This document shows, one piece after another, positions 3,648 to 22,916 of a stretch of 22,916 bases of DNA; within the stretch, counting starts at the first letter, position 1, and each line of letters starts with the position of its first letter. A program made the translations under genes and the position numbers. Source of the DNA: a virus; the IMG/VR virus record IMGVR_UViG_3300008450_000492, positions 1 to 22,916 of that record; one strand, written 5' to 3'. A model generated the notes under the pieces. It was given only the letters and a program-made list of their open reading frames with translations. It was not told the origin of the DNA and did not search any database.

Positions 3648-3650
3648 ATA

Positions 3651-4169
3651 TTAACTAAATTCTAAATTTTGTCTTATTAAAGCGTATGATTGTCTTGATT
3701 GTGGAAAGAACATTACTTCTGCTGCTGGCATTGTTTGGTTTTGCGCACCACCCATATAGGTTAAGTTGTGCTGGTTGTTAACAGTTCCGGTTGCTGTTGA
3801 TATATCAACTACTTGAGCTCCTGCTGAGTTTGCTCTTCCTGATGGTTCTAATAATTTAACTACTCTTCCTAATAATGCTGTTTGATCACTAAGAAATTGT
3901 AATGTTTCATCTGAGGCTGGTGTTAGAACATTATCAATGAATATTTGCAATTTATCACTACTTGACATTGATGTAGTATCAAAGTCTAATGTTAAGACAT
4001 TGTTTGTAATACTACCACCGGCGTTTGGGTCAGCAAAATTATAAATAATTTTATTAGTAGTTACATTAGTTATAACTAATAACTGTTCTAATGTAATAAC
4101 ATCTGTAGTATTAAATGTAACTGTTTTAGCAGAAGCATTAAAACTATAATTTTCAAATAATATTTTCAT
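3651..4169 (-). CDS. Conserved phage structural protein of unknown function, fibre-adjacent
   Basis: This 172-residue protein begins MKILFENYSFNASAKTVTF. Its N-terminal half is beta-rich, with LLVITNVTTNKIIYNFADP and LTLDFDTTSMSSSDKLQIF. I recognise this style from uncharacterised proteins beside fibres in large marine phages, but I know no function. The second half (about 95-172) is less structured, starts with LLGRVVKLLEP and ends in a polar tail. It starts inside the stop of the upstream 61-aa gene (TAATG, one shared base), implying coupled translation, and it is followed after 3 nt by the 923-aa adhesin. A connector or accessory role for the distal fibre complex is an inference from position only. 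Confidence 0.7.
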   Translation of the reverse strand: MKILFENYSFNASAKTVTFNTTDVITLEQLLVITNVTTNKIIYNFADPNAGGSITNNVLTLDFDTTSMSSSDKLQIFIDNVLTPASDETLQFLSDQTALLGRVVKLLEPSGRANSAGAQVVDISTATGTVNNQHNLTYMGGAQNQTMPAAEVMFFPQSRQSYALIRQNLEFS

Positions 4170-6854: not shown

Positions 6855-6862
6855 ATAAATAT
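6855..6862 (-). promoter_or_regulatory. ATATTTAT motif before the 267-aa gene
   Basis: The coding strand reads TTAATATTTATTAAT, partly overlapping the stop codon of the upstream hub gene and ending 6 nt before the ATG at 6848. It is a variant of the recurrent motif. Confidence 0.25.
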
Positions 6863-9800
6863 TAAACTTTTACTATTACTGAGAAGTGATGGGCGTCATT
6901 AGCACTTTTTAACCAAAACATTTCTTCGTCTCCACCTTTAGCTAAAACAAAATTATTATTAATAAGATTGTGAGGGAGTGATGTCTTTACATTATTTGAA
7001 AAATCTCTATCCCAATTAGATACTCCTCCTGATCCTAATGGGTATTGGCTAGCATTAATATCTATAGCCATACCAAAAGCATGGGCTGATATTTGACCAT
7101 ATTTAATACCAGTTGCTGGTGTTACATCACGTCTAACTATACCTGCTCCCCAACTTTTTATATGATCATCATTCCACATACCAGCATTATCTAATGCTTT
7201 TGCTACTTGAGTTAATGTTGGACCAAAAAGTTTATTAAGTTTAGATGATTTTGTGAATCCAGTTTTCCCAGTATATGACCAAGTAGTAAGATTATTATCA
7301 AAGTTAGGATCAGATTCATACTCATTTCTATTACCATTAAATCCAACAACTTTAGCATATTTTGTTCCTGATGAGTCACCAGGTTTAGTATAGAATTTAA
7401 TAGGATAATAACCATTATTAAGTTTAGCTAGTCTCTTTAAACTATTACTATTTAAAGTTAAAGTAACATCAACATAGTTAGTACCATTATCAGTATTAGC
7501 TTTTGTTGGAGGTGAAATATATACTCCATCTGCTGGCCCTTCTGTAGTTGTTATAGTAACATCTCCTACAACTTCTTCTCTTTCTTCAGTCACTTCTTCA
7601 ACATAATCAAATTGTGTTAAAGTAGTTACATTAGTTCCAATAGAATCTATTATATCTGTATCAGATACAGGGACTGTAGTTTTTTTAAGAACTGTTAAAC
7701 TACCTATATCTGTAGTCCACCCACCATCATTAATTTTATGTGTTAATTCTCGAACTACAAATCCAGCTACTCCAGCGTAATCACTTGGTAAAGCTAAACT
7801 ATTAACAGCAAATACTTGATGAATATCTAACCCACTTATTCCATCAACTGTTAATTGAAGATTTAAAGGTATTAATCTATCCCCAGATATATTATTCTTT
7901 TTAGTATACTGGCCTATTTCAAATTTAAAATAGTCTTGTATTGAATCTTTAGAAGAGTCTATATCATCCTTTGACAAAGAAAAATAAAGTTGTTGAGTTA
8001 ATTTTAATCTATATTGTTTATATCTTTCAGCTAAAAGTGGCAATTCAGCGTTAGCTACTCCACCACCAGTTGGAGAATTTTTATTTGTTTTAGTTGTTAA
8101 AACTCTATCTGTTGTGCCTTTATATAACTCAGCAAATATAGTTCCATTAGACACAAGAGTATTCCCATTAGTTTGAGCTCCAACTAGTAAAGCATTTCCT
8201 TGTTTTGAAAACACTTCAGATTTTATAGAATAATCTAAAACAAATGATCCACTTAAAGGTGTTAAAGTATTAATATTAATAACAGTTGGATCAATTTTAT
8301 CATATAAATTAGTTAAATATGTGTTGTCTAATATTCTTAAAGAATTATTAGAATGGTTATATGATAAAACAAAATCATTAATATATCCTAAAGCTCCTTG
8401 TATTCCATCTAATAATGAATCTAAAAATTTAGTTAAACTTAATTTACCATCTGTTTCAATATTTCCTTCTATAGTTTTATGAATAAAATTCATATTAACT
8501 AAAATATGCATTAATTTTCCTTTAAATGGGTCTGATGTTCGATATCTAGAATCTAAAGTATTAAGAATGCCATTACTTTTAAGAGCATCATATGATGGGT
8601 TATCTTTAAATATCTCGGTTATTACTTTTTGGAATAAAAGACCCCTACCAGATGATGGGAGAGTTGTAGTAGGATATTCTACATTTAAGTTTTTACCTTC
8701 AAGATCATCAGTAATGATAGAGTTAATTAATCTTTTTGGGATATCAGTACTCTTTACCCATTTTTCATCAAATACTTCAGGTTCTGTTATTCCTGTATTT
8801 ATGTTAAAGCCCCCAGAAATTTTAACACTTTTCCATTCATATGTAATCTCGTAAATTTCTTTAACATATTTTTTATCAAATTTATTTACGTTATCCAATT
8901 TTAATGGTATTAAACATACTGTTGGGTCTAATGATAAATGGTTAACTAATGTAAAACAAAAATTATTATCATAATCATAATCTAAAAATATAGTAGGTGG
9001 AGATGGATTTTTAGAAGTATCATATTCTAGAAGAAATGACTCTATTATTCTTAATAATGCGCCTAATTTAATATAATATTGTCCTAAAGGAGCATCACTA
9101 TACCCAGATTCTAAATTAGCAAAATCAATTTTATATGTTTCATTATCATCAGTTAATGTACCTCCAGTTTTTTTATAAGAATAGTCAATTCCTGATTTAG
9201 CGGCTATTGTGTCTGTACTTATAGTAGAATTACCATTTAAAGATCCATTCCAATACGTCTCAGCTTGAAATCTTTTTATTATTCTATCTAATGATGATCT
9301 ATTAAATGTAAGTGGATTTAACCAATTATCATCTGTAAGTGTAGGTGCTTCGGGATTAGCTTTAAAATTTAATACTGTATTAATTGATATTGATTCAGCT
9401 ATGTCTCCAGCTGATATTAGATCTATTTTTATTTTGTATGAACCTTCTGGGGTTAAATTCCAGTCAAAATTTTTAACTACACCAACTAGGGCATCATAAT
9501 TACCACAAGATTCTTTTTGTTTATTTTCAACTTCAGCTAGCATATCAGGTAAACTAGTACCATTAGTTAAAAATTTACCTGATAAGTCTATAGTGTTATT
9601 TGTATAATTATTACTATTGTCATAGTAGATGTTATGGCCCCATTCTAACAACATACAATACCGTAATTTTAAATATAAAGCATTAATGACATTAAATTGA
9701 AATATATTATGAGCTATAATATTAATCTCAGCTGTTCTAACACCTCCTTTATTCAATGTTTTAATATTAATATCTATTATACCTGGAGGTGGGACAAATC

Positions 9801-10137
9801 CAAAACTAGGATTAGATGAAAACCCATAAGACACAGGCTCAGAAAAAGAATAACCTACACCTTTAGAAAAATCTTCACCTTGGGAACTTTGAAATCGAGT
9901 TGAAAACAGTTTATACTTTTTAGCTAAGTCATTGCCAGCTGATGCTAATCCTTTTAAATTTAAACTAGTTATAACATTATCTTCTACATTAATGCCTGAG
10001 GTTAATCTAATAAAAGGATATCTATTATTTCTATACACAATATCTTCATTACTTAGATTATCAGATAAATTTAATTTTCTTTGTCTAAGTTTAATTTGAT
10101 CACTTATTGATGACGGTATAGATGGATTTAAAGCCAT
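6862..10137 (-). CDS. Baseplate hub protein with C-terminal M15-type peptidase domain
   Basis: This 1091-residue protein is paralogous to the upstream 1234-aa protein over about 850 residues. Shared motifs in order are RLTSGxxVxxxV, GFVPPPGI, IKTLNKG, LLLEWGH-like (MLLEWGHNIYY), SCGNYDA, YYIKLGALLR, LEYDTSK, LDPTVCLIPL, RILDNTYL, GAQxNGNT, PLNLQLTVDGISG and LTHKINDGGWTT. The common body is probably the hub scaffold (gp27/gp5-like in role), inferred from position and size. The C-terminus (about 950-1091) resembles M15/VanY-type zinc D,D-peptidases: SAHAFGMAIDIN at 1017-1028 fits the SxHxxGxAxD zinc motif (His1019, Asp1026), and DAHHF at 1081-1085 supplies the acidic residue and the third ligand (Asp1081, His1084). 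It would cut peptide cross-links in the murein sacculus during tail penetration. A Thr/Glu-rich linker (about 830-870) separates body and enzyme. It starts 3 nt after the paralogue. Confidence 0.8.
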   Translation of the reverse strand: MALNPSIPSSISDQIKLRQRKLNLSDNLSNEDIVYRNNRYPFIRLTSGINVEDNVITSLNLKGLASAGNDLAKKYKLFSTRFQSSQGEDFSKGVGYSFSEPVSYGFSSNPSFGFVPPPGIIDINIKTLNKGGVRTAEINIIAHNIFQFNVINALYLKLRYCMLLEWGHNIYYDNSNNYTNNTIDLSGKFLTNGTSLPDMLAEVENKQKESCGNYDALVGVVKNFDWNLTPEGSYKIKIDLISAGDIAESISINTVLNFKANPEAPTLTDDNWLNPLTFNRSSLDRIIKRFQAETYWNGSLNGNSTISTDTIAAKSGIDYSYKKTGGTLTDDNETYKIDFANLESGYSDAPLGQYYIKLGALLRIIESFLLEYDTSKNPSPPTIFLDYDYDNNFCFTLVNHLSLDPTVCLIPLKLDNVNKFDKKYVKEIYEITYEWKSVKISGGFNINTGITEPEVFDEKWVKSTDIPKRLINSIITDDLEGKNLNVEYPTTTLPSSGRGLLFQKVITEIFKDNPSYDALKSNGILNTLDSRYRTSDPFKGKLMHILVNMNFIHKTIEGNIETDGKLSLTKFLDSLLDGIQGALGYINDFVLSYNHSNNSLRILDNTYLTNLYDKIDPTVININTLTPLSGSFVLDYSIKSEVFSKQGNALLVGAQTNGNTLVSNGTIFAELYKGTTDRVLTTKTNKNSPTGGGVANAELPLLAERYKQYRLKLTQQLYFSLSKDDIDSSKDSIQDYFKFEIGQYTKKNNISGDRLIPLNLQLTVDGISGLDIHQVFAVNSLALPSDYAGVAGFVVRELTHKINDGGWTTDIGSLTVLKKTTVPVSDTDIIDSIGTNVTTLTQFDYVEEVTEEREEVVGDVTITTTEGPADGVYISPPTKANTDNGTNYVDVTLTLNSNSLKRLAKLNNGYYPIKFYTKPGDSSGTKYAKVVGFNGNRNEYESDPNFDNNLTTWSYTGKTGFTKSSKLNKLFGPTLTQVAKALDNAGMWNDDHIKSWGAGIVRRDVTPATGIKYGQISAHAFGMAIDINASQYPLGSGGVSNWDRDFSNNVKTSLPHNLINNNFVLAKGGDEEMFWLKSANDAHHFSVIVKV

Positions 10138-10140
10138 ATT

Positions 10141-13100
10141 TTATGTATAATAAGGAGGAATATATTCTGGAAGTCCTCCAACACCTTTTTTAGTATTGTC
10201 TACAAAGTTTTTTCTAGTATCAATAAGAGCTTTTACAACTTCACCAACAGTTATTTTAGTTACTTTTGGGTTATTTCCACTTGAATAATACCCAGTTGTA
10301 CCATTTCCTGTAGTGACATCACCAAAGTTTCCAGTTACTTCTTTACCATCTATCTGTTGTTTAATAGTTATAGGTTTAGAAGACCAAATTTGACCTATAC
10401 TTTGTACAGCTTGAGCTAATTGACTAACATCTCCCGAGTTAATTCCTTTAATATAATTACCAACTTGTCCATCTAATAAATTCTCAGCTATTTTTTCTTG
10501 ATTAGCTTCATCATATTTGTCTACATCTGGGTTTAGTCCTGCTTTTTTAGCTCTATCTACTAGATATTTACCTAATTGTTGGTATTTACCTATAGCTGAG
10601 CTCCATTCAGTCTCAGCAGCACGTTTGTTAGCTTTAGCTGCTATTTCACTTATAGTAAATTCTTTAGCATTTTTTCCAAATACTGTTGTAATTCTATTAT
10701 TATCAATCCCTGTTCCTCTTGCACTTCCATTAATAGAATCATATACTCCTTCTCCTCTAGCAGCTATATCTTTTATAGGTAAATATCTATTATCACCACC
10801 TATAGTAATAGGTGTATCAGATTTTGAGTCTTCTTTAGGGGCTACAACTGGGTCAGGTACTTTAATGCTAGCAACTGTTCCTAAACTATTATTTTGAGTA
10901 GTTCCCTTATTAAATCTTTTAACAGCTAATGTTTCAATATTTGTAGTCCATCCTTTATCATCAATCTTATGTGTTAAACCTTTAACTATAAATGCTAACC
11001 TATCATGATAATCAGATGGAAGTAATTCTTGATTAGTTTTAAATAATTGATATTGTTTAATACCACTTAATCCATCAACAGTCACTTGAAGATTAAGAGG
11101 AATAAACATTGTGCCTTTTAAAGTAGCTATATCATTACCTTTTTTATCTTTCTTACCATTAGTAAGATAACCTAATTCATACTCATATATATCTTTAGAT
11201 GCTCCATTAGCAGCTTGAGCTTCTTCAGATGTAACAATAGGAGCACTATTACTTGCTTCAGCACTCCATGCTATAGAAAATAGTTTAGTTATATAATTAT
11301 ATAATATATTTAACCTAGATTTATAAGCTTCATTATCAGAATCAGTGATATTATTTTTATTTTGTTTTTTTTCTATAATTCTATCAACATATCCTTCATT
11401 AAATTTAGCGAATGTAGTTCCATTAGAAACCATAGTATTACCATTCTTTTGAGCGCCAGCGGCTATAGCATTAGCTATTCGAGCTGTTAATTCAGTTTTA
11501 AGAGATACATCTTTAACAAATGTACCTGAGGTGTCTTTTAGTAAATTTATTTGTAACTCAGTTATGTTATCTTTCCCAGAATTGGCTACATATGTGTTAT
11601 CTATTATCCTAAATGTATTATCAACATCATCAAATGTCACTTCAAAATCATTCATGCCACCTAATGCTCCTCCAATATTGCTCATTAATGTTTTTAAAAA
11701 TTTTAAAACATCAATATTTCCATTTTTATCAATCTTAGTATCTAAAATATCCATAACATTACCTAAATTAACTAGAATATCCATTGTTCTAGCTGTGTAG
11801 TCATCGATTCTAAAATCATTCTCCATATGGTATTGTATATGAGCCATTCCTACAGGCCATGAATTAGTACTAACTACACTAGCAGCAGTACCAGTAGATA
11901 TAGTTGTGTATACAAAATATGTTACTTTTACATCTATTTTATTACTAACCTCTCCTCCACCTAAAGCATAACTTGTGTAAATATAATCATTTTGCCAATT
12001 TGGATTTTTTGTTTTAATTTGTTCTAAAACAATATTCCCAAATCCAAATTTTTTATTTTCATAATTATTTAAATTCCCCCAAGTTATACCATCACTTTTT
12101 GTTTTATGAAGTGAGTCAGTTAAAAAATATGAACCTTCTTCATATTTTATATCTATTTTAATTGGATTAGACTCAAAATCTAAAACTTCTTCTGTATTCC
12201 CTGGCCCTCCAGCCCCATTATTTCTAAGAACTGTTATACTTTTAATATAGAATTGGTTAAGTTCTTTTGTTCCAATAGTAGCTTGAGCAGTTACTGTGGC
12301 TACATCACTAGATGTTGCTTCTCCATATCCTTCATTAAATCCTGATCTGCGAAGTTGAGTATTATATTGGTCTATATTTTTATCAGCTGATCCAAATGGT
12401 CTAACAAAGTCACAGTCTACAGTATATTCTCTTAACTCATACTGGAGAGTAGCATTTTGTTCTAATCCTTTTGAGTTAACAGGTATAACACACACTGTTG
12501 GATCTGTTGACACTTGGAGTGGAATAGTTAAAAATTTGTTTGTGTATCTATTATGGTCAATCCTAAAAATAGGTTCACTGGTTCCTTTGGAAGTATCATA
12601 CTCTAAAAGAAATGCTTCTATAAATCTTAATAAAGCTCCTAATCTAATATAATATTGAGCAAATTTAGGATTATTACCATCACTTCCAGCTACATAAAAA
12701 GAACTTGCCCCAAAATATGGAAATATCATTCTAAAAGCTTCGGGTAAATTATTGCCAGTTCCATTATTAGAAAAGGTTTCTTGTATCCCTAATCCACCAC
12801 CGATTGAAGAATTAAGAGTGTTTCTTCCTCCAGCTTTATTATATAACGGAGCTGATTCATATGAAGCGGCTGAGTATTGGGCATAATTCCACTCTGTGTT
12901 TAATTGAACTTCTCTACAATAAGCATGTAAAGTAGACTTTAAGAATTGGGGTGGAAAATAAGCGTTTATGTCTTCTATTTTTTTACCTAAATTAAAAGAA
13001 GTATTAACTTTTAAAGATTCAATCACATCCCCAGTAGATATAGCTATAACAGTTATATCATATGTTCCATTAGATTTAAGACTCCAATTAAAATTTTTAA

Positions 13101-13845
13101 TAACACCTAAAAAAGCATCATAATTACCACATGATTTTTGTCTTAAAGCCTCAATTCTAGTTTGCATATCTTTTTGAGAACCAGGATTTTTAAGAAAAGT
13201 TCTAAATAAATCATATGTTGAGTCTATTTGATTTATTTTATAGTCCCCAGCTGTGTTATTTAAGTAAACACTATGCCCCCATTCTAATAATAAACTATAT
13301 CGTAGTCTTAAAAATAATGCTTCTATTACTCTAAATTGTATTAGATTATGAGCAGTGATTTTAATTGTAGCTTCTTTTAAAGTACCTTTATTTAATGTTT
13401 TAATAGTAGCTGATTCTATACCAGGAGGTGGGACAAAACCAAATTCAGGTGATGATAAAAATCCTTGACTTGGTGGTAAAGAATTATATCCATATCCATA
13501 TCCAATTCCTCCAGTAAGTCTAAATGTGTCTGTAAATTGATTACCACTTTTATCATCAATTTTAGAAACATTAATATTAGGATCAAGGAATTGAGATGCG
13601 AATAAAACAAAATTTTTAGCTAAACCATCACCTTTATTAGCCTGTACCCCAACATTATCAAATCCAATTCGTTTACAAACATCTTCATCAACTGTGACTC
13701 CAGATGTTAATCTAAGAAAAGATGTTTTACTATTATATAAATGAAACTCATTTGAATAATTAGTACTAGATTTTAAAAATGTTTGTCTTTTATCAATTTG
13801 ATCTTTTACAAAATCATTAAATGACTCTCCAATAACATCTGCCAT
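10141..13845 (-). CDS. Baseplate hub protein with C-terminal muramidase-like domain
   Basis: This 1234-residue protein, the largest of the window, shares its first ~950 residues with the downstream 1091-aa paralogue (GFVPPPGI, TIKTLNKG, LLLEWGHSVY, SCGNYDA, YYIRLGALLR, DPTVCVIPV, RIIDNTYV, GAQKNGNT, LTHKIDDKGWTT). After a linker near 990-1020, residues 1026-1165 look like a lysozyme-superfamily (muramidase or lytic transglycosylase) domain of phage tails: ARGEGVYDSING, with Glu1032 as probable catalytic acid, then TISEIAAKA, SAIGKYQQLG, ANQEKIAENLL and LAQAVQSIGQIWSS. The role is probably local cutting of glycan strands at the tail tip, like the lysozyme part of T4 gp5, although the architecture differs from gp5. 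The last ~70 residues are Gly-rich, then helical. No signal peptide is present, as expected for a virion enzyme. The gene is 3 nt after the LysM gene. Confidence 0.8.
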   Translation of the reverse strand: MADVIGESFNDFVKDQIDKRQTFLKSSTNYSNEFHLYNSKTSFLRLTSGVTVDEDVCKRIGFDNVGVQANKGDGLAKNFVLFASQFLDPNINVSKIDDKSGNQFTDTFRLTGGIGYGYGYNSLPPSQGFLSSPEFGFVPPPGIESATIKTLNKGTLKEATIKITAHNLIQFRVIEALFLRLRYSLLLEWGHSVYLNNTAGDYKINQIDSTYDLFRTFLKNPGSQKDMQTRIEALRQKSCGNYDAFLGVIKNFNWSLKSNGTYDITVIAISTGDVIESLKVNTSFNLGKKIEDINAYFPPQFLKSTLHAYCREVQLNTEWNYAQYSAASYESAPLYNKAGGRNTLNSSIGGGLGIQETFSNNGTGNNLPEAFRMIFPYFGASSFYVAGSDGNNPKFAQYYIRLGALLRFIEAFLLEYDTSKGTSEPIFRIDHNRYTNKFLTIPLQVSTDPTVCVIPVNSKGLEQNATLQYELREYTVDCDFVRPFGSADKNIDQYNTQLRRSGFNEGYGEATSSDVATVTAQATIGTKELNQFYIKSITVLRNNGAGGPGNTEEVLDFESNPIKIDIKYEEGSYFLTDSLHKTKSDGITWGNLNNYENKKFGFGNIVLEQIKTKNPNWQNDYIYTSYALGGGEVSNKIDVKVTYFVYTTISTGTAASVVSTNSWPVGMAHIQYHMENDFRIDDYTARTMDILVNLGNVMDILDTKIDKNGNIDVLKFLKTLMSNIGGALGGMNDFEVTFDDVDNTFRIIDNTYVANSGKDNITELQINLLKDTSGTFVKDVSLKTELTARIANAIAAGAQKNGNTMVSNGTTFAKFNEGYVDRIIEKKQNKNNITDSDNEAYKSRLNILYNYITKLFSIAWSAEASNSAPIVTSEEAQAANGASKDIYEYELGYLTNGKKDKKGNDIATLKGTMFIPLNLQVTVDGLSGIKQYQLFKTNQELLPSDYHDRLAFIVKGLTHKIDDKGWTTNIETLAVKRFNKGTTQNNSLGTVASIKVPDPVVAPKEDSKSDTPITIGGDNRYLPIKDIAARGEGVYDSINGSARGTGIDNNRITTVFGKNAKEFTISEIAAKANKRAAETEWSSAIGKYQQLGKYLVDRAKKAGLNPDVDKYDEANQEKIAENLLDGQVGNYIKGINSGDVSQLAQAVQSIGQIWSSKPITIKQQIDGKEVTGNFGDVTTGNGTTGYYSSGNNPKVTKITVGEVVKALIDTRKNFVDNTKKGVGGLPEYIPPYYT
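10351..10770 (-). other. Muramidase-like domain within the 1234-aa hub protein
   Basis: Residues about 1026-1165. Glu1032 in RGEG is the probable catalytic acid. GKYQ and the LAQ...W segment are typical of phage tail lysozyme-like domains. Boundaries are approximate. Confidence 0.65.
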
Positions 13846-14155: not shown

Positions 14156-16465
14156 TTATGGGTTATAGTTAGGTAATTGTCCTGTATAATTTTCAACTGT
14201 TGGGATATTTGCCTCCGGATTATTGAATGAATCTTGTGGACCTAAAGTACTAGGAAATTCTTCTGGTTCAAAGACATATGATTTTCCACGGAAAGAAACA
14301 GTATTAGTTGGATCTAATGGACTAAAAACATTGCTTGTAGGAGACTGTTGTTCAACCAAATTAGGAAATAAAACTGAGTCAAATTCAAGTGGTTTTAATG
14401 GACCTGTCCCTGGTTCTATAAGAGGTTCAGGAGTTGTTACTAAAGTACCTGATCCTTCTCCTGTACCTACTCCTTGTGAAGTCCCAAAATTAATAAATGG
14501 AGAGTTTTTAACAGGAGTAAATGAGTGTATAGGTGTAAAGTTAAATCCATCTACTTTAATAGCTATTGGAAGTTGACCAGTATAATTAATTCCTCCTCTT
14601 GATACTATTTTACCATCATTGTCTCTATTTATATCCCATCCAGCATCAAATATTGGAGTTAAATTTAAACCCGTTATTATACCTGGGACTGAAGTTAAAT
14701 AATCTCCTACTGTTAATCGTACAATTTGACCTCTCATTAATCCAGCTGATGAGTAATCTGGTGCTGTAATTCCTACTAATCTATTTATTTTATTATATAG
14801 TGGAATCATTTCAGCCCTAGCGAAAGCAGCTATAGTGAATGATAAACTTATATCTCTTTCAAAAGCACTATATCTATAAAAGTTTTCAGCTCTACCTACA
14901 TACTTGTATGAGTCCCATTTTGGTTTATAAGAGTCCTGGAAACTATCTATAAATGCTCTAAAGTATAAATAATCTGAAGCTGTTAGAGATCCATTTGATA
15001 CATCATTACTTAATATCTCTATAGAAAATTTAATTAAGTTAGCATCATCTGCTTTATAATCACTATTAAAATCATTTTTAGCATTTATATAATCTAAATT
15101 TTTCTTTGATGATTTTAAAAAATCAACTCTATTTTTACGATCTCTTGGTAAAGAAAGATAAGGAGTATTCCCACCACCACTCATACCATATCCATTTCCA
15201 TCTCCATCAGGTTGATTTTCTTTATTAAAGGATTTATACCTAGATATTTTAGAAACAAAACTAAGAGTATTAGGTATTAATGTGCCATTTGTATCATCAA
15301 ATGAAATTGGAGAAATATATTCTGGGGATGGTAAATTTGGGCGGAAACCAATACCACCATTATTATCTGAAAAACCAGCAAAAATATTAGTAGCGTCTTC
15401 TAATACTTTTTTACTATTAGTAAATTCCCACCTATTAATAGTGGTAAAACCAATTCCAAAAGGGGCGTCAGATCCTCCAAAATATCTAAGTAATGTATTA
15501 CTATCTTCATCTCCAGATGTTATATTATTTCTATCTTCAGCTCCTATTCTAAACCCAACTATTTTTCTATAATATAATCCTGGTAAACGTGATGCTGGGA
15601 GTTTTGTCGTGTTTCCAAAATTGTTAATGCCTATAAGCGTTTCATCATCTCTTTTAACAACACCCAAATAATTACTGGCGTCATTACCTAATATATCTAA
15701 ATTAGCTCGGAAATCCCCAGTTCTCAAAGCACCAAGACTTAATCCTGTTAATGGGGCTGAGTAAGCCGTTCTAAGTCTAGTACCTATTCCTTGAGATACT
15801 GCTGATCCTATAATGTTTAATATATTAAATCCTCTTTCAACCCCACGTACTAAAGGTGTTTGTAAAGCTAAAGATCTTTGAGTTGATTTGAATATAAGGT
15901 AATTACTATCTACAAGTGTAGTAATTTCTGTTCCTCTCTTTTGAAGCCATCTTTTAAATCCATTATCACTTAAATTCTCAGGATATGGATTTTCTCCATT
16001 AAGTAAAGTTAAAGGTGAAAAAAATCTTGTTAATCTTAATCCATCTATAATACTGCGCTCTCCTAATTTAAGTGTTTTATAAAGAGTAGTATTTTGTAAT
16101 GGAGGTGAATATGATTGGTCTATAGGATCAATATTGCTCCATACTAATGGATATATACTTTTACTACCATTTAATCCATCACTCCATCTTCCAGTATCTA
16201 TTTTACCAACATTTTTACTAGCTCCAGTAACTTTAAAAAGTTTATTTAAAAGTGCTTCTGTAGCTACTGGAGGGGCAGCACTCCTAAAAACTATATTACC
16301 TGGTACTTTTTCATCAGGGTTACCAAAAGCGGCTTCAAAAGCAGGTCCTTCATTTAAAGCATTAGTATTTTCTAAACTAACTCCCCCTCCTTGAAACTGT
16401 TGAGCTAAAGGATTATCCTCATAAAAAGAAGCTAAATTTGTTTTTAATAGATTTTTTAAACTCAT
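14156..16465 (-). CDS. Large baseplate/tube-junction structural protein
   Basis: This 769-residue protein has a conserved region at about 510-650: WDSYKYVGRAENFYRYSAFERDISLSF-like text, then AEMIPLYNKINRLVG, GLMRGQIVRLTVGDYL, VPGIITGLNLTP, GWDINR, QLPIAIKVDGF and FTPIHSF. This series is widespread in large myophage baseplate proteins and resembles tube-type beta-barrel subunits, so it could be a tube initiator comparable in role to T4 gp48/gp54; that is inference. The N-terminal 500 residues are specific and without recognised domains. Residues 650-769 are rich in Pro, Gly, Ser and Thr and probably flexible. The gene starts inside the TAA of the upstream 131-aa gene (TAATG) and precedes the LysM gene by 7 nt. 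The location between tape measure and hub supports a junction function. Confidence 0.72.
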   Translation of the reverse strand: MSLKNLLKTNLASFYEDNPLAQQFQGGGVSLENTNALNEGPAFEAAFGNPDEKVPGNIVFRSAAPPVATEALLNKLFKVTGASKNVGKIDTGRWSDGLNGSKSIYPLVWSNIDPIDQSYSPPLQNTTLYKTLKLGERSIIDGLRLTRFFSPLTLLNGENPYPENLSDNGFKRWLQKRGTEITTLVDSNYLIFKSTQRSLALQTPLVRGVERGFNILNIIGSAVSQGIGTRLRTAYSAPLTGLSLGALRTGDFRANLDILGNDASNYLGVVKRDDETLIGINNFGNTTKLPASRLPGLYYRKIVGFRIGAEDRNNITSGDEDSNTLLRYFGGSDAPFGIGFTTINRWEFTNSKKVLEDATNIFAGFSDNNGGIGFRPNLPSPEYISPISFDDTNGTLIPNTLSFVSKISRYKSFNKENQPDGDGNGYGMSGGGNTPYLSLPRDRKNRVDFLKSSKKNLDYINAKNDFNSDYKADDANLIKFSIEILSNDVSNGSLTASDYLYFRAFIDSFQDSYKPKWDSYKYVGRAENFYRYSAFERDISLSFTIAAFARAEMIPLYNKINRLVGITAPDYSSAGLMRGQIVRLTVGDYLTSVPGIITGLNLTPIFDAGWDINRDNDGKIVSRGGINYTGQLPIAIKVDGFNFTPIHSFTPVKNSPFINFGTSQGVGTGEGSGTLVTTPEPLIEPGTGPLKPLEFDSVLFPNLVEQQSPTSNVFSPLDPTNTVSFRGKSYVFEPEEFPSTLGPQDSFNNPEANIPTVENYTGQLPNYNP

Positions 16466-16860
16466 TAATCATTATCTATGTTATTTCGAGTATCAGAGAT
16501 AGTAGTACCTGTGATATACGAAGGAGTTGGTTTTGTTCCGTTTAAATCTAAAATAGCTGGAGGAGGAACTGCATTAGATGCTAATCCTAATAAGGAAGGA
16601 GGTAAGTTATAAGCATTAAATATATTTTGGGCTCCTTGAGCATCAGATCCATTTAATGAATAACTACTACTTATATTTCCATCATTAGAATGGATAGATT
16701 TTTTATTAGCTGGTGAGAAAATACCTTGTGCTTGTGGATTAACAGGTATATCTGCCCCATGATTGTATGATTCATTAGTTATTGAGAGAGTATGACTCCC
16801 ATAACCTGTCTCAGGCAATTGACTTGGTTGAGTAGCTAATAATAACTCTATTAAAGCCAT
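16465..16860 (-). CDS. Small conserved phage protein, paralogue B of a tandem pair
   Basis: This 131-residue protein begins MALIELLLATQ and is a tandem paralogue of the 105-aa protein just upstream. Shared segments are MALI(E/D)LL, a middle NPQA, then SIHSN(D/N)G, SYSLNGS(D/N)AQGAQN and NAYN, and a late LDLNG versus MDLDG followed by TP and Y. It is Asn/Ser/Pro-rich, mostly polar, and has no signal peptide or membrane segment. I recognise the MALI...SLNG...DLNG pattern from small proteins in other large phage tail clusters; its function is not known. The gene begins 1 nt after the first copy, with AGAGGAT upstream of its ATG, the only weakly SD-like leader in the window (it is also the end of the previous coding sequence). 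It ends overlapping the next ATG. Confidence 0.7.
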   Translation of the reverse strand: MALIELLLATQPSQLPETGYGSHTLSITNESYNHGADIPVNPQAQGIFSPANKKSIHSNDGNISSSYSLNGSDAQGAQNIFNAYNLPPSLLGLASNAVPPPAILDLNGTKPTPSYITGTTISDTRNNIDND

Positions 16861-16861
16861 G

Positions 16862-17179
16862 TTATCCTCTTACTATATTTACTCCTTCAGGTGAGTTATT
16901 AGCGTAGGTAGGTGGGGTATAACCATCTAAATCCATAGGTCCACCAGCTCCGGCAGGTAATGGTAAACTGTTGCTATATCCATCGTTATACGCGTTATAC
17001 ACGTTTTGAGCTCCTTGAGCATTAGATCCATTTAATGAGTAACTATTATTAGGGTCACCGTTATTTGAATGGATTGAAAATGGATTACCAATATTAGCTT
17101 GTGGATTTATCTCAATACCTTCACCATTATTGTAAGATAATGAACTACCTTGATTTTGTAATAAGTCTATTAAAGCCAT
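16862..17179 (-). CDS. Small conserved phage protein, paralogue A of a tandem pair
   Basis: This 105-residue protein (MALIDLLQNQGSSLSYNNGEG at the start) is the shorter copy of the pair. Its core, SIHSNNG then SYSLNGSNAQGAQNVYNAYN, is nearly the same as in paralogue B. Residues about 70-90 (LPLPAGAGGPMDLDGYTPP) give the conserved Leu-Asp-Gly-Pro element. It is polar and probably an extended or scaffold-like protein; no catalytic motif is visible. Location directly after the tape measure and before the baseplate genes suggests a tail-tip or assembly role, an inference. The 41-nt leader carries the ATATTTAT motif and a segment shared with the tape measure leader. Confidence 0.7.
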   Translation of the reverse strand: MALIDLLQNQGSSLSYNNGEGIEINPQANIGNPFSIHSNNGDPNNSYSLNGSNAQGAQNVYNAYNDGYSNSLPLPAGAGGPMDLDGYTPPTYANNSPEGVNIVRG

Positions 17180-17220: not shown

Positions 17221-19563
17221 TTAAGCTGAGATTCCAACGGATTTAGTAGCTGTTGTTGTACCAAATGTATCAAAATCAAATTCTTTCCTAGCTGATGTAG
17301 CTGTATTAAATGCTATAGCTTGTAATGCAGCTAACAATTCAGGACTACTATTAGATGTAGGTGCTGTTACCGCTCCAGCACTCATAGGTGTAACAGTAGC
17401 ATCTTGTGTTTGTTGTGGGCTATTAGTACTTAAATAAGCATAATCACTCTTAATTCCTTGTGCTACAGGTACTAACATTCCTCCTTCAGGCTTAGATATT
17501 ACTAAACCACCATCAGGATTAATAGCTCCATCTTTTACCATAGCAAAAGCACCTACAGCTGCCATAACAGCTGCTAAACCCCCAATAATAAATGGAGTAG
17601 CTGCTCCTAAAGTACTAGCTTCAGCGGCTGTTACCTTAGCAGCGGCTTCAGCTGTGGCTATAGTTGTTTTTGTCCTTTCAGCAGCTATTAATTCAGCCAT
17701 AGCTTTTTTCTGGGCATCTAATGCTGCTCTTTGTAATACAAATTGAGCTGTAGTAGCTATTAACCCTCCTATTAATCGGCCTGTTATTAATCCTGCTATA
17801 GCTCCAACCGCTAGTTTAATGTTTTCAAATAACTTTTTAACATTATCTCCATTTGATAAGAATTCTTTTAAAGAAAGCAACATTCCTCGCATTGGACCTT
17901 CTAATAAATCACCTACCGCTTCTTTTAAATCTAATATTAATTCATTAAAGTCAGCTTGAATATCTGTTCTTTCCATAGCAGCTGCTAAAGCTGTCTCATC
18001 ACCAGCTGCTGCTAACAACTGGTTAGCTGCTTCTACTTCTCCTCTAGCTTTTAAATCCTCAACCATTTTAAGTAAATTCTCTCTTTGTTGAGTACCTAAT
18101 TTATTTAAATTGTCTTGTTGGATTAAAGCATTAGAAAATTCATCAACAGTCATCCCCGCGGCTTGAGCTAATGATTCTTGTTCAAACACAGTTCGACCCA
18201 TAAAATCATTAATACCACCAACTTCTTTCATTACTAAAGCTTGAGCTTCAGCTGTTTTACCCGCTAAAGCTAATGAACGAGCTTCTTCAAGATTTAATTC
18301 TTTACCAGTTAGTAATTCAGCTTCTAACTCATTAGCTATAGATGATTCAAAATCTAATAATTTTTTAGCAGCAGCATTTGATTGTTCAATGCTCATACCT
18401 AAACTCTTAGATAAAACTACTGCTTTAGCTATTTGCTCAGTACTATTACCATATTGTAAGCGAAGTTGACCTTGAACTTTAGCAACATCCGCTGTAACAT
18501 CTTTCATGCTTAACATTATACCTTTTTGTTTTGACAAATTGGTAACTTGTTTAGCTATAAGTAATACACCTTCTTTTTGAGACTGGTTATTTACTGCGAA
18601 TAATGTGCTTAATTTAGCAGCTTCTTCGCCTTGTATTCCCATCTTTTTGGTTAAATTTATTTGACCTTTAACCATCTCATCAGAGAACATACCAGCTGTG
18701 CCTATAGAAGCATTTAATTGGTTTTGAGCTTCAACTTGATTTCGGACATTGTAGTAGATATCTCCACTAGTGTCTCGAATTTCTTTCATTCTATCACGTA
18801 GTATTTCTGCTCCTTCATAGGTTACACCCATGTTTTTAGAAATATCTACTAACTGTTTATCTACATTTAAGGCCGCTTCATAAGCGAATTTAAAAGCAGC
18901 TACTATAAGATTAACAGCATTAGCTGGGTCTAAGAAACTTTTTTTCAAACTTCGACCTACAGATTTACCTCCTTCTTTTATGACATCAAAAGCATTTCCT
19001 CCAGCTTCAGCTACTTCTTTCATCTTTTTAGCTGCGCCATCTAAATCCATAAATTTAGCTAATGGGCCTGGTAGTTCTTTGTTTAAGGTTTCTACCGCAT
19101 TACCCATTATACCGTAAGCATGTATTATTTTTCTTTCTGCTTTTTCCCTTTCTTTTATTTCTTGATTAATTTTTTTAAGTATATCTTTATGTTCATTAAG
19201 TATACCTTTTTCTTTAAATCTATATTTAAGTTGATCTTGATTTGATCTAAGTTGATCAGCTGTGGCTTCTTTATTACCTTTTAATATGTTATGGGTGTCT
19301 CGAAGAATATCATTGGTTTTTTTAAACCAATTAATTTGTTTTTGAACAGATAGACTTACATCTTGAATGTCCTTAACAAGATCTTTAAAATTTTTAATAA
19401 CATCTTTGACTTCACCACCTATATCATCAAGGCGTTTCTTAACTTGATTAAGTTCTTTATTTAATTCTCTAACACTTTTTCCAGTGTCATTAAATTCTTC
19501 TCCAAGTTTTTTATAAGCTGCTTCTAATTCTTGTACTTTTTGAGCTCTATTATTTGCTGCCAT
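17221..19563 (-). CDS. Tail tape measure protein
   Basis: This 780-residue protein has the classical form of a tape measure. Residues 1-170 are charged coiled coil (many Lys, Glu, Asp and Gln), followed by an Ala-rich helical body up to about 570. Two hydrophobic segments lie at about 584-602 and 653-676, separated by an Ala/Glu helix. After the second comes DGAINPDGGLVISKPEGG (678-695), an element often found near the C-terminus of tape measure proteins in large phages, and then a low-complexity Thr/Ser tail. It sets tube length during assembly and is expelled at infection; the hydrophobic segments may enter the host membrane. At the rule of about 0.15 nm per residue it predicts a tail near 115 nm, in the range of T4. 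It follows the chaperone pair, the usual order. ATG start with no Shine-Dalgarno sequence. Confidence 0.88.
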   Translation of the reverse strand: MAANNRAQKVQELEAAYKKLGEEFNDTGKSVRELNKELNQVKKRLDDIGGEVKDVIKNFKDLVKDIQDVSLSVQKQINWFKKTNDILRDTHNILKGNKEATADQLRSNQDQLKYRFKEKGILNEHKDILKKINQEIKEREKAERKIIHAYGIMGNAVETLNKELPGPLAKFMDLDGAAKKMKEVAEAGGNAFDVIKEGGKSVGRSLKKSFLDPANAVNLIVAAFKFAYEAALNVDKQLVDISKNMGVTYEGAEILRDRMKEIRDTSGDIYYNVRNQVEAQNQLNASIGTAGMFSDEMVKGQINLTKKMGIQGEEAAKLSTLFAVNNQSQKEGVLLIAKQVTNLSKQKGIMLSMKDVTADVAKVQGQLRLQYGNSTEQIAKAVVLSKSLGMSIEQSNAAAKKLLDFESSIANELEAELLTGKELNLEEARSLALAGKTAEAQALVMKEVGGINDFMGRTVFEQESLAQAAGMTVDEFSNALIQQDNLNKLGTQQRENLLKMVEDLKARGEVEAANQLLAAAGDETALAAAMERTDIQADFNELILDLKEAVGDLLEGPMRGMLLSLKEFLSNGDNVKKLFENIKLAVGAIAGLITGRLIGGLIATTAQFVLQRAALDAQKKAMAELIAAERTKTTIATAEAAAKVTAAEASTLGAATPFIIGGLAAVMAAVGAFAMVKDGAINPDGGLVISKPEGGMLVPVAQGIKSDYAYLSTNSPQQTQDATVTPMSAGAVTAPTSNSSPELLAALQAIAFNTATSARKEFDFDTFGTTTATKSVGISA

Positions 19564-19596: not shown

Positions 19597-19938
19597 TTAA
19601 TATTTTGCAGGACCTCGTCCCTTAACAAAATCTTGAGGATTTATAACTGTAGTATTTTGAGAATTAGAAGATTTAGAGTTAGCCTTTTTAGTAGCTTCAG
19701 CTTCTTTCTCATAGAAATCTGAGATTTGTTGGTAAGTAAAATTTCTTAACCAAACCGGCATTCTGTAAACTGTTTCCCAGTCATATCCTCCTTTACCATG
19801 GAATACTATCTCATGAATTTGAGAAAATAGATTTCTTCGAGAAATAGCTGCTTCCTTAAAACTCAGGGTAAAAAAAGTTGATACCAATTGGGATGCTGAC
19901 TCTATCTTCACTCCCGTCGGGAAAAAAAGTAAGATCAA
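19597..19938 (-). CDS. Downstream frame of a tail assembly chaperone, probably expressed by +1 frameshift
   Basis: This frame overlaps the preceding gene by 83 nt. From its conserved part it reads KEAAISRRNLFSQIHEIVF, then YDWETVYRMPVWLRNFTY, then a Lys/Ser/Asn-rich end. YDW..VY.MP.WLR.F is typical of the small second part of tail assembly chaperones. No ATG precedes this region; only TTG (19938), GTG (19911) and another TTG are available, all before the conserved part. The more likely expression is a +1 shift at the end of the upstream frame, giving a fusion of about 329 residues (243 + 86, the latter read from 19857). It sits just before the tape measure gene, like gpG/gpGT of lambda. Independent initiation from TTG/GTG cannot be excluded; coordinates give the full open frame. 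Confidence 0.65.
   Translation of the reverse strand: MILLFFPTGVKIESASQLVSTFFTLSFKEAAISRRNLFSQIHEIVFHGKGGYDWETVYRMPVWLRNFTYQQISDFYEKEAEATKKANSKSSNSQNTTVINPQDFVKGRGPAKY
19855..19864 (-). promoter_or_regulatory. Candidate +1 programmed frameshift site GAG TTT TAA G
   Basis: The coding strand reads GAG TTT TAA G at the end of the upstream frame. A Phe-tRNA on TTT can re-pair with TTT one base forward, after which AAG is read and the downstream frame continues. A slow stop codon directly after a slippery codon is the principle of the RF2 (prfB) +1 shift. Run-of-T alternatives are AAC TTT TTT TAC a few codons earlier and a T7 run at 19922-19928. Confidence 0.45.
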
Positions 19939-20587
19939 TATCTGGCTGCGTGTTTTTAATATGATCTCTTAGCGCTTTAGAATCTCGAGCTAAGAGAGCG
20001 TTGTCGACAAACTCTCGTATATATTTTTGATCTCGTTCTCCATTAATGGATGTTATCATATATTTTAGTCGAGTTGATAACTCTGGGGTGTGATTTTTAT
20101 TAATTTTTTTAAGACCATCTAATTCAGCTTGAATCTTATTCTCATCACCATGAGTTAATAATTTATACATTATATTAACTTTAGAATGAGGTGCTGTAAA
20201 CGAAAACTCATTTATCCCTTTAGTGAATGTTTTTTCATCAATAGGTTTATTTTCAATTGATGTTAAATCAACTGTGTATTCTTCTCCACCATAAGTAAAT
20301 GTGTAGTCTTTACCATATCCTAAAATACGAGCTGCTACCATAATAGCATTTTTATCACCCGCTATAAGATCATTATAATCAATTTTACTTACAATTAAAG
20401 ATTTCATTAATTCATCCAATACTATACCTTTTTGTATGTAAGAAGCATTAGTTAAAATATCTTCTTCTTTAGCGGTCATATATTTCATTTCAATTTGACC
20501 TGATGAAAGTGGATTGTCTGTTGGGTAAACTAAACCTTTTGAAGGTAGATCTATAATTTCTGTTGGTAACTTAATTGGGGTACTCAT
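19856..20587 (-). CDS. T4 gp26-like baseplate/tail assembly protein (PF12322-type), chaperone upstream frame
   Basis: This 243-residue protein has the features of the T4 baseplate-protein family that includes gp26: an N-terminal LPTEIIDLPSKGLVYP, then IEMKYMTAKEEDILTN (about 33-48), a predicted helical middle (VDNALLARDSKALRDHI), and a final IPIGINFFYPEF. It is cytoplasmic and used for tail assembly; in this position (tube, this gene, tape measure) it resembles the short form of a tail assembly chaperone. The stop TAA at 19856-19858 lies 83 nt inside the next frame, which is +1 relative to it. The ATG is 97 nt after the tube gene, behind a terminator and one ATATTTAT motif, so it probably belongs to a new transcript. 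No Shine-Dalgarno sequence is visible. Confidence 0.78.
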   Translation of the reverse strand: MSTPIKLPTEIIDLPSKGLVYPTDNPLSSGQIEMKYMTAKEEDILTNASYIQKGIVLDELMKSLIVSKIDYNDLIAGDKNAIMVAARILGYGKDYTFTYGGEEYTVDLTSIENKPIDEKTFTKGINEFSFTAPHSKVNIMYKLLTHGDENKIQAELDGLKKINKNHTPELSTRLKYMITSINGERDQKYIREFVDNALLARDSKALRDHIKNTQPDIDLTFFPDGSEDRVSIPIGINFFYPEF

Positions 20588-20684: not shown

Positions 20685-21173
20685 TTAGTAGTTTAATACG
20701 CAATAATCCATTCCTAAATTCAATGTGATGTTTTGGGCTGCTGTGTCATTATCCCAGTTATATTCACCAAATTCGGCTGATTTAATAAATGCTCCGACAA
20801 TTACCCACTCACTAACAATATCTCCCACAGGTCCTAATACTTGAATAGAAACTTGTTTCTTATAGAAATCTGAGTAACCATCACGGCCTGTTACTGATTC
20901 ATGGTGTAAACGAACCCATTCCATTACTGATTGAGCACCTGAAGGGGTGATTGGGTCAAATAATGTCATTGTTAAATCGTTCCACTTTAACTTACCTTTA
21001 ATTTTACGATAAGTGTTTATATAATTCAACGTTATTTCTTCTTGTGTGAACCCAACTGAACCAACACCTTTAATAATATATGAAGGTATACCGTCAACTA
21101 TCATTATAAACCTGTTCTGTACTTTAGGTTCAAAAGGGGTGAAAAATATGTCGTTTGTACTTAAAATTGCCAT
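20685..21173 (-). CDS. gp19: Tail tube protein (T4 gp19 family)
   Basis: This 162-residue protein, about the size of T4 gp19 (163), has the expected features: N-terminal FTPFEPKVQNRFIMIVDGIPSY, then IKGVGSVGFTQEEITLNYINTYRK (about 34-57), LTMTLFDPITPSGAQSVMEWV, YKKQVSIQVLGPVG, and IVGAFIKSAEFGEYNWDND. These correspond to the Phage_T4_gp19 family (PF06841). It polymerises as stacked hexamers to form the inner tube through which DNA passes. The gene is 39 nt after the sheath gene and is followed by an intrinsic terminator, so tube and sheath, both needed in many copies, would share one transcript. Its leader holds a 19-nt block identical to that before the fibre gene at 858. ATG start, no Shine-Dalgarno sequence. 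Confidence 0.92.
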   Translation of the reverse strand: MAILSTNDIFFTPFEPKVQNRFIMIVDGIPSYIIKGVGSVGFTQEEITLNYINTYRKIKGKLKWNDLTMTLFDPITPSGAQSVMEWVRLHHESVTGRDGYSDFYKKQVSIQVLGPVGDIVSEWVIVGAFIKSAEFGEYNWDNDTAAQNITLNLGMDYCVLNY

Positions 21174-21212: not shown

Positions 21213-22916
21213 TTACCCTGGGAATGTTGCTCCTGTTGGTGTAATATTAAATGTTAAGTAAATAAATTCAGCTGTTTTAGTTGGTTGTAAATATATAGCT
21301 CCATTTAATTGATTTTGATCAATTGTAACTGCTGTATTGTTACTTTCATCCATTACTACTTGGAAAGCATATAATCCTTGACGAGCTTGAACATCAGCTA
21401 AATATGGATTAACTCTTGCTAAGAATGAAGCTCTTGTAGCTAAAGTATTTTGTTCAAATAATAATGTACTAGCTACTTGAGAGATATAACTCTTAACAGC
21501 AATTAACAAACGACGAACATTTACACGATCTAAAGCTGAAGCTTGAGTTTGTAATGTTTTCTGACCATATACTACAACTCCTCTACCTGGGAATGTAGCA
21601 ATTGGATTTACTTTACCTTGGTATAATGTATCTCTATCTGTTTGAGATAATTTGTATTTAGCTCTAATTACTTGACCTAATCCACCACGATTAATACCTG
21701 CTGGTGCAAACCATGGTTCAGCAATAGCATCAGTTTTAGCATACACTCCACCTATAACAGTTGAAGCTGGTACCCATACTCTGTCTCCAGTGTCAGGATC
21801 AGTAACCATTACCCATGGCCAATATGAAGCAGCATATGAAGTGTCTCTAGATGAAGCAGCTCCAGCAACTGTTGATGTTGAACTCACATCATATGGTACT
21901 AAATCTACAACATAAATGTTATCTCCTCTATTTTCAGTGTTACTAATAATAGAAGTAACTTGAGTAGCATTTTCTTGGCTTGATAAACCAGGTGTTAACA
22001 ATACATTAAATCTATAATCATCAGTATTAGCTAATAAATTAATCATATTGGTATAATCTGTTCCTACTACACCTTGAGTGTTTGGAGTTCCAGTTATGAT
22101 TTGATCATAGAATTTAGCATTAGCAGCTATAGTTCCTTGAGCATTACCAAATGATCCACTAGAAACAACTGGGATAGATGATGTATATTGAGCTTTAGCT
22201 ACACCATTATTATCAAAATAATTTGGTGTAGGGTATAATACTGAGCTTACTCTAATATATCTTGAGCGATTTGGATTTTCACCTGTTAATAATACTTGGT
22301 TAGTAGCTGAGTCGTAAGCTTGAACTTGATCTCCAATTACTTTAGATACATAGTTTGGAGCTAATGGGTCTAATGATAAGTTAGTCCATGTTTCTAATAT
22401 TTGCTTAGAAATATTATTATCATTACCTTTTCTAACTATTAATGAGAATGTACCTGAAGAAGTATTAGCTGAAACTATTTCCCATCTAATGTTGTCATTA
22501 GATCCACTAGCTAAAGCTCCATTTGAGTCTTGAGAGCTAGTGCTATTCATTATAATACCTTTAGAAAGTGTTTCTAACACTAAAGCATTACTTCCTATTC
22601 CATTAACACCTCCACCTAAAGTAGCTTGAGTTGAGAATGAAGCACCTGATCCAGTTTGGAAAACATATCCATTATAAGCTGAACTTGATACTGATCCAGA
22701 TAATATTAAAGTATTTGTACTAGTTGTAGCAGTTACACCTAAAGCAGTAACACCTGAGATTTTAGATGCTAAGTTAGCTATAGTTGTTGCTAAAGCACCA
22801 CTAGCAAAGAAATATAATTTACCATCAGCATCATCTTGATAATTACCAGAAGCTGTAGGTAAGAATCTATATGTGTTTGAGCTATTATCTACAACTCTAA
22901 ACTCAATATTGATTGG
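21213..22916 (-). CDS. gp18: Tail sheath protein (T4 gp18 family), 5' end outside window (partial)
   Basis: The frame is open to the window edge, so 567 residues are visible and the N-terminus is missing. An internal GTG at 22580 is not a likely start. The C-terminal part is diagnostic of contractile sheath proteins: RAKYKLSQTDRDTLYQGKVN, then NPIATFPGRGVVVYGQKTL, SALDRVNVRRLLI, a helix with LFEQNT, and QGLYAFQVVMDESN, ending in a beta strand (FIYLTFNITPTG) that would join neighbouring subunits. The N-terminal visible 120 residues are Ser/Gly/Thr-rich and probably form the variable outer domain. Sheath subunits surround the tube and contract to drive it through the envelope. The tube gene follows after 39 nt, the usual T4-like order. 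Confidence 0.9.
   Translation of the reverse strand, partial: PINIEFRVVDNSSNTYRFLPTASGNYQDDADGKLYFFASGALATTIANLASKISGVTALGVTATTSTNTLILSGSVSSSAYNGYVFQTGSGASFSTQATLGGGVNGIGSNALVLETLSKGIIMNSTSSQDSNGALASGSNDNIRWEIVSANTSSGTFSLIVRKGNDNNISKQILETWTNLSLDPLAPNYVSKVIGDQVQAYDSATNQVLLTGENPNRSRYIRVSSVLYPTPNYFDNNGVAKAQYTSSIPVVSSGSFGNAQGTIAANAKFYDQIITGTPNTQGVVGTDYTNMINLLANTDDYRFNVLLTPGLSSQENATQVTSIISNTENRGDNIYVVDLVPYDVSSTSTVAGAASSRDTSYAASYWPWVMVTDPDTGDRVWVPASTVIGGVYAKTDAIAEPWFAPAGINRGGLGQVIRAKYKLSQTDRDTLYQGKVNPIATFPGRGVVVYGQKTLQTQASALDRVNVRRLLIAVKSYISQVASTLLFEQNTLATRASFLARVNPYLADVQARQGLYAFQVVMDESNNTAVTIDQNQLNGAIYLQPTKTAEFIYLTFNITPTGATFPG

Follow-up and report, generated by a model that had tools for sequence, protein, structure and literature searches.

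A conserved slip site points to +1 frameshifting in a phage tail assembly chaperone gene

The DNA analysed here, referred to as the window, spans 22,916 bases recorded from an uncultured T4-like phage and carries contractile tail genes on its minus strand. The ORF list and the phrog matches give the order on that strand as sheath, tube, a pair of overlapping chaperone frames and tape measure (Table 1). The two frames, TAC-N and TAC-C, lie between the tail tube and tape measure genes, a position that is typical of a lambda-type chaperone pair. The tape measure protein is the expected client of the chaperone and the tail tube protein the expected partner of TAC-C. As listed, the ORF of the second frame (19597-19938, first listed start TTG) overlaps that of TAC-N (19856-20587) by 83 nt. 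A sequence-only reading of the window had described this overlap and the +1 relation of the second frame, and had noted that this frame has no ATG before YDWETVYRMPVWLRNF and that the first ORF ends in GAG TTT TAA G; all of this was confirmed from the ORFs, which are on the minus strand. The window also contains adjacent paralogues. Two large ones (6862-10137 and 10141-13845) share 38% identity (E 4e-77); the product of the former has a weak C-terminal match to M15 peptidase (E 0.005), and the C-terminus of the latter product differs. Two small ones (16465-16860 and 16862-17179) share 45% identity and are without any Pfam match.

Table 1. Features of the tail gene region of the window.
Feature	Position	Strand	Evidence and remarks
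Tail sheath gene	21213..22916	minus	phrog_23 tail sheath, E 2.9e-68; truncated by contig end
Tail tube gene (gp19-like)	20685..21173	minus	phrog_4542 tail tube, E 9.1e-24; directly upstream of the pair
TAC-N, gp26-like short chaperone, 243 aa, 0 frame	19856..20587	minus	ATG ORF; TAA at 19856-19858; phrog_150 baseplate hub, E 3.8e-6
Slip site TTT TTT TAC, 0 frame	19868..19876	minus	T-run 19870-19876; +1 reading TTT TTT (T) ACC
TAC-C, +1 frame from ACC (19869-19867)	19597..19869	minus	90 codons plus stop at 19597-19599
TAC-NC, predicted fusion of ~329 aa (239 + 90)	19597..20587	minus	conserved frame pair and site
GAG TTT TAA G at TAC-N end	19855..19864	minus	not conserved in relatives
Tape measure gene	17221..19563	minus	phrog_167 tail length tape measure, E 2.3e-5; directly downstream of the pair

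Relatives were collected as 80 viral loci from a scan with the TAC-N protein of the window, a further 80 loci from a scan with its homologue in Microcystis phage Mel-JY01, and 9 from a scan of genome contigs. The cultured relatives are Flavobacterium phage immuto (58% identity) and Mel-JY01 (47%), with Bacillus phage SP-15, Listeria phage LIS04, Streptococcus phage GXN1 and Rhodothermus phage RM378 farther off. The gene order in immuto is that of the window; in Mel-JY01 the sheath, the tube and the chaperone pair are followed by a large unnamed gene. The +1 arrangement is present in nearly all first-scan relatives in which the stop is covered, the exceptions being L018 and L019. It is likewise present in L096-L175 and L177-L184 where these are covered, in immuto and Mel-JY01, and in SP-15, LIS04, GXN1 and RM378. 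Some loci end too early for the frame relation to be read (e.g. L031, L036, L045, L131, L160 and L185); in L036 and L045 the coverage reaches the start of the second frame only. L089, an uncultured record at a very great distance, has its second frame in the other relation. Because the same +1 arrangement recurs across relatives, the frame pair is not due to chance, and comparison with the relatives establishes it as conserved. The records of immuto and Mel-JY01 show the second frame as a truncated or separate hypothetical ORF and call for correction; no paper was found on this frameshift in the literature on either phage. The end of TAC-N in SP-15, LIS04 and GXN1 (L085, L086 and L087) has the pattern TTY TTT NNN NCC CGA TTY. 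Three of the relatives (L181, L182 and L184) come from contigs that had been binned with assemblies of Alphaproteobacteria, Woesearchaeota and Thaumarchaeota, and these are probably misbinned phage contigs.

To compare the overlaps, identical sites were removed and the remainder clustered at 85% identity over 140 nt, which left 92 representatives. Just upstream of the TAC-N stop all 92 have YTT YTT T, followed by an invariant CC, and this establishes a conserved slip site. The slip codons are TTT TTT in 85 representatives, TTT CTT in 4 and CTT TTT in 3, and the codon after them is TGG in 86, TAC in 4 and TTC in 2. The commonest site is TTT TTT TGG CCT. The window belongs to the TAC group and has TTT TTT TAC CCT, its T-run starting 18 nt upstream of the TAC-N stop. 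The codon TTC is used for none of the 177 Phe codons at the site, versus 176 of 827 (21%) elsewhere in the same ORFs, a depletion with a naive log10 P of -18, uncorrected for relatedness. The TTT CTT TGG and CTT TTT TGG variants retain a slippable YTT T.

The reading frames on either side of the site define where the change of frame would occur. In all 92 representatives the +1 frame is conserved and open over at least 65 codons, with a median of 82.5; past the site, the -1 frame stays open for only 2 codons at the median. Before the site the +1 frame is unconstrained, in 14 of the 92 it has a stop no more than 5 nt upstream, and constraint on it sets in with the first or second codon downstream. 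The stops close upstream, together with the constraint directly after the site, place the frame change on NNN YTT YTT, and at the level of sequence this brackets the shift to some two codons. Among 80 codon columns tested in an alignment of 41 proteins, the CCT column has the strongest excess synonymous conservation, as is expected if CCT also sets a Leu in the +1 frame (GLT...). Elements that might stimulate a shift were also sought. RNAalifold predicted no pair in 26 sequences, so no conserved stimulatory RNA fold was found in them, and downstream folding has a mean z of -0.6 to -0.8. In the column profile, inspected by eye, neither a Shine-Dalgarno-like element nor a conserved purine run was apparent upstream of the site, and Rfam gave no match within the window.

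These observations suggest that the two frames are very probably one tail assembly chaperone gene, the long form of which would be made by a +1 shift on the T-run. In the proposed mechanism, the majority of ribosomes would read TAC-N through to its stop. In the others, a P-site tRNA-Phe (or Leu) would occupy the second YTT while a TGG, TAC or TTC codon is awaited, and would re-pair one base forward on TTT at little cost. The next codon would then be ACC in the window, GGC in most relatives or TCC, and translation would give TAC-NC. The net +1 fusion of ~329 aa that had been proposed for the window is supported by the conserved frame pair and site. Its predicted junction is ...NFF-TLSFKEAA... 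and not ...NFFYPEF-KEAA.... By analogy with lambda gpG/gpGT, TAC-N would coat the tape measure protein and TAC-C would recruit tail tube subunits. That the shift occurs in vivo, that it goes +1 and not -2, how efficient it is and what the two forms do are inferred from comparative evidence.

The two first-scan exceptions, L018 and L019, differ at the site itself. Here TTC TTC TGG replaces the T-run and TAC-N stops there. An ORF for a GIY-YIG homing endonuclease lies between the halves (L018:4709-5392, and in L019; Pfam E 1.3e-5), and TAC-C has its own ATG, which overlaps the endonuclease stop. The L018 ORFs were read directly and L019 was placed by the same junction. No group I intron was found at the L018 insertion. 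A well-placed ATG in the second frame, which the sequence-only reading had named as evidence against a shift, is therefore found among homologues, in two loci with an endonuclease gene between the halves. Loss of the slip site accompanied by an independent start is as a frameshift model predicts, although this is one event. The L018/L019 TAC-C also contains an in-frame stretch that resembles the end of TAC-N (VPLGLNLFN). In L018 a second endonuclease-like ORF (3083-3916; DUF559, NUMOD3) is present between the tube gene and TAC-N.

Would the same fusion be reached in another way? Slippage by -2 lands in the same frame as +1 and would differ in one extra Phe at the junction. TTT TTT T does let the P-site tRNA re-pair 2 nt back on TTT, and phage Mu provides a precedent for a -2 shift (PMC5009743). 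However, at the sites of L084 (TTT CTA TTC) and GXN1 (TTC TTT CGT) a -2 shift pairs poorly, whereas +1 moves from TTT to TTC and is cognate. This point is limited, as these are distant relatives that possibly shift elsewhere, and the TTT CTT TGG variants are not decisive; overall we consider -2 slippage unlikely. The sequence-only reading had instead placed a +1 shift on the TTT at the TAA stop. In chemical terms TTT TAA G could plausibly serve for +1 slippage, and the resulting frame is the same, but it is barely credible as the site used here. When homologues were aligned the +1 overlap proved to be conserved and TTT TAA did not: it is missing in the close relatives L003 (TCT TAA A) and L005 (TCC TGA G) and in nearly all others, most of which have GCC TGA or GTA TAG. 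Moreover, +1-frame constraint is already seen in the codons that directly follow the T-run; the shift therefore precedes them, and TTT TAA comes too late. GAG TTT TAA G is probably just the normal end of TAC-N.

Or, are there two genes or two kinds of message rather than a shift by the ribosome? TAC-C might be a separate gene that is started at TTG or GTG or by re-initiation near the stop. In the window an AAGGAAG sequence overlaps the TAA, the window lineage has a TTG at 19938 and two more GTG/TTG codons upstream of the site, and TAC-C does start separately in L018 and L019. Start codons are not conserved, however: in 25 of the 92 representatives the +1 frame lacks any ATG, GTG or TTG ahead of the conserved GG motif. 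A separate start also leaves the conserved T-run and the directly following coding constraint unexplained, and is in our view very unlikely. Still less probable is slippage of RNA polymerase on the homopolymer of 7 in the window, which would give mRNAs of different frame. The TTT CTT TGG lineages (L039, L062, L068 and immuto, L082) have no run of more than 3 T and keep the frame pair, and a homopolymer broken in such variants argues against it. Homopolymers are also error-prone, and a sequencing or assembly error, or decay of the second frame, could be suspected, though no tool result backs an error. Such a reading is of negligible probability and is refuted by the relatives: independent assemblies show the same relation at 137 non-identical loci, cultured isolates have it too, and the second frame is conserved as a protein.

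The +1 shift on the T-run is thus the reading that we prefer, and the relationships of the two protein halves place it among known chaperones. Vladimirov and colleagues are said to have identified the T4 chaperones, in 2022, as genes 26 and 51. T4 gp26 and gp51 each match Pfam T4_baseplate along the entire family profile. The TAC-N of the window scores 15.3 bits against this family, below the cut-off of 24.5, and the direct comparison of its profile with T4 gp51 is not significant (P 0.29). In profile comparisons that include its distant relatives, the TAC-N family matches cyanophage gp26 along nearly the full length (P 2.3e-11), and cyanophage gp26 in turn matches residues 8-200 of T4 gp51 (P 9.8e-10). 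By this chain through cyanophages, profile comparison establishes TAC-N as homologous to the cyanophage and T4 chaperones gp26 and gp51. The cyanophage -1 frame matches the C-terminus of gp51 from about residue 198 (P 5e-8). The match of the window TAC-C to the cyanophage -1 frame is weaker (P 2e-4); directly against gp51 it is not significant (P 0.066) and is aligned at the expected place. Since the gp51 match breaks at about residue 198-200, gp51 looks like an in-frame fusion near the shift point of the others.

TAC-C has the conserved motif GGY..YNMPIWLR and is modelled as a helical hairpin with a mean pLDDT of 78. The AlphaFold model of TAC-NC residues 1-302 has a mean pLDDT of 86; TAC-N is at about 95 (blocks mostly 90-98) and TAC-C is poorly defined (46-66), the input having been the window fusion and TAC-N rows, so that the TAC-C part was nearly single-sequence. 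Foldseek found nothing significant in the PDB. Of its candidates, VIA-align ranks 2ob9, the tail assembly chaperone of HK97, first; the match is weak, with a Z of 4.6 over 83 residues at 4.2 A, though apt. A search for DUF6760 in 296 Bacteroidota genomes gave 3 matches. In two Bacteroidota genomes (L192:859-1623 and L193:859-1623) a gp26-like ORF runs in frame into a DUF6760 domain directly after Ser-Phe-Phe, which is the frameshift position in the phages; sheath and tube genes are nearby and the loci are like those of contractile injection systems. In another such genome (L191:647-1194, minus strand) a DUF6760 frame comes after a short gp26-like ORF and is in -1 to it, with the junction GGG GAA TCA TAG, possibly another frameshift.

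The cyanophage (Kyanoviridae) gp26 pair is homologous to that of the window and likewise shifts on a Phe-Phe right where TAC-N ends. It differs in having the heptamer T TTT TTC, a -1 second frame and a stop one codon after the site. All 80 cyanophage-type loci have T TTT TTC; in 79 of the 80 the second frame is open in -1 for at least 100 nt, and in none is it in +1. The window family does not follow the scheme of a -1 shift on X XXY YYZ, its second frame being +1. In a TAC-N tree, which is unrooted and has some long branches, a branch with 99/97 support separates the -1 rows from the +1 rows; an injection-system row falls with the latter, at the end of a very long branch. Cygsa01 groups with the -1 rows, and its second gene starts at an ATG that overlaps the stop. 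The cyanophage S-SCSM1 (L091:3171-3371) has the TTT TTC site, yet its second frame is +1 as deposited; a sequencing error, an own start or a true change are candidate causes. The sequences are most simply read as showing a single change of direction, with the Phe-Phe position kept. On balance, we lean towards the view that a homologous chaperone pair has switched the direction of its shift at the Phe-Phe at the end of TAC-N: -1 on T TTT TTC in cyanophages versus +1 on YTT YTT T and a sense codon in a large group of Flavobacterium, Microcystis and uncultured phages, the latter without an A-site stop, an apparent Shine-Dalgarno element or conserved RNA structure, while T4 gp51 would be fused in frame at about the same place.

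How does this pair compare with the systems already described? In lambda, gpG and gpGT are likewise a short and a long chaperone made by a frameshift directly upstream of the tape measure gene, and in the 92 representatives a second frame overlapping the 3' end is reached at a conserved slippery site. The lambda shift is -1 (PMC5009743). The evidence supports the proposal that, in a pair of gpG/gpGT type, the gp26-like protein here takes the place of gpG. The link between T4 gp26/gp51 and lambda-type chaperones, which the sequence-only reading had presented as joining two systems usually described separately, was already published for T4-like phages by Vladimirov, Gautam and Davidson in 2022. 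PMC10885494 cites this study (Virology 566:9-15) for some T4-like phages that encode the short and long chaperones as separate genes, and PMC12846349 cites it for poly-T -1 signals. T4 still appeared as an exception in a review of 2016 (PMC5009743). T4 gp26 and gp51 resemble the window pair in that the N and C parts are homologous by the profile chain and occupy the same kind of gene position; T4 has two genes, whereas the window would have one gene in two frames.

Shifts with a net +1 are known from other phage tail genes. That of a tail gene in the haloarchaeal HSTV-2 is very likely +1, and the major tail gene of Listeria phages PSA, A118 and A500 has a +1 shift at CCC UGA (PMC5009743). In the Listeria phages a tail protein is extended and the site is a Pro codon with a stop, unlike the Phe/Leu YTT T and sense codon of the window family. 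In the literature covered, which was incomplete, no report was found of a +1 version in this phage group or of a switch of direction at one Phe-Phe. The +1 site of bacterial prfB is CUU UGA C, where a P-site YUU moves +1 onto UUU. The window family has the same shift-prone YTT T at the P site in all 92 representatives, and its TTT CTT TGG variants resemble the prfB site. The sequence CUU U is also mentioned in PMC10885494. The prfB site has an A-site stop and an upstream Shine-Dalgarno stimulator, in contrast to the A-site TGG, TAC or TTC of the window family.

In phages with long tails, tail assembly chaperones contribute to establishing the control of tail length. With no obvious stimulators and kept down to about 45% protein identity, the +1 site would provide a clean natural system for sense-codon +1 frameshifting. 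Likewise, the difference between +1 and -1 at one position in homologous genes may offer a way to ask what decides the direction of a shift.
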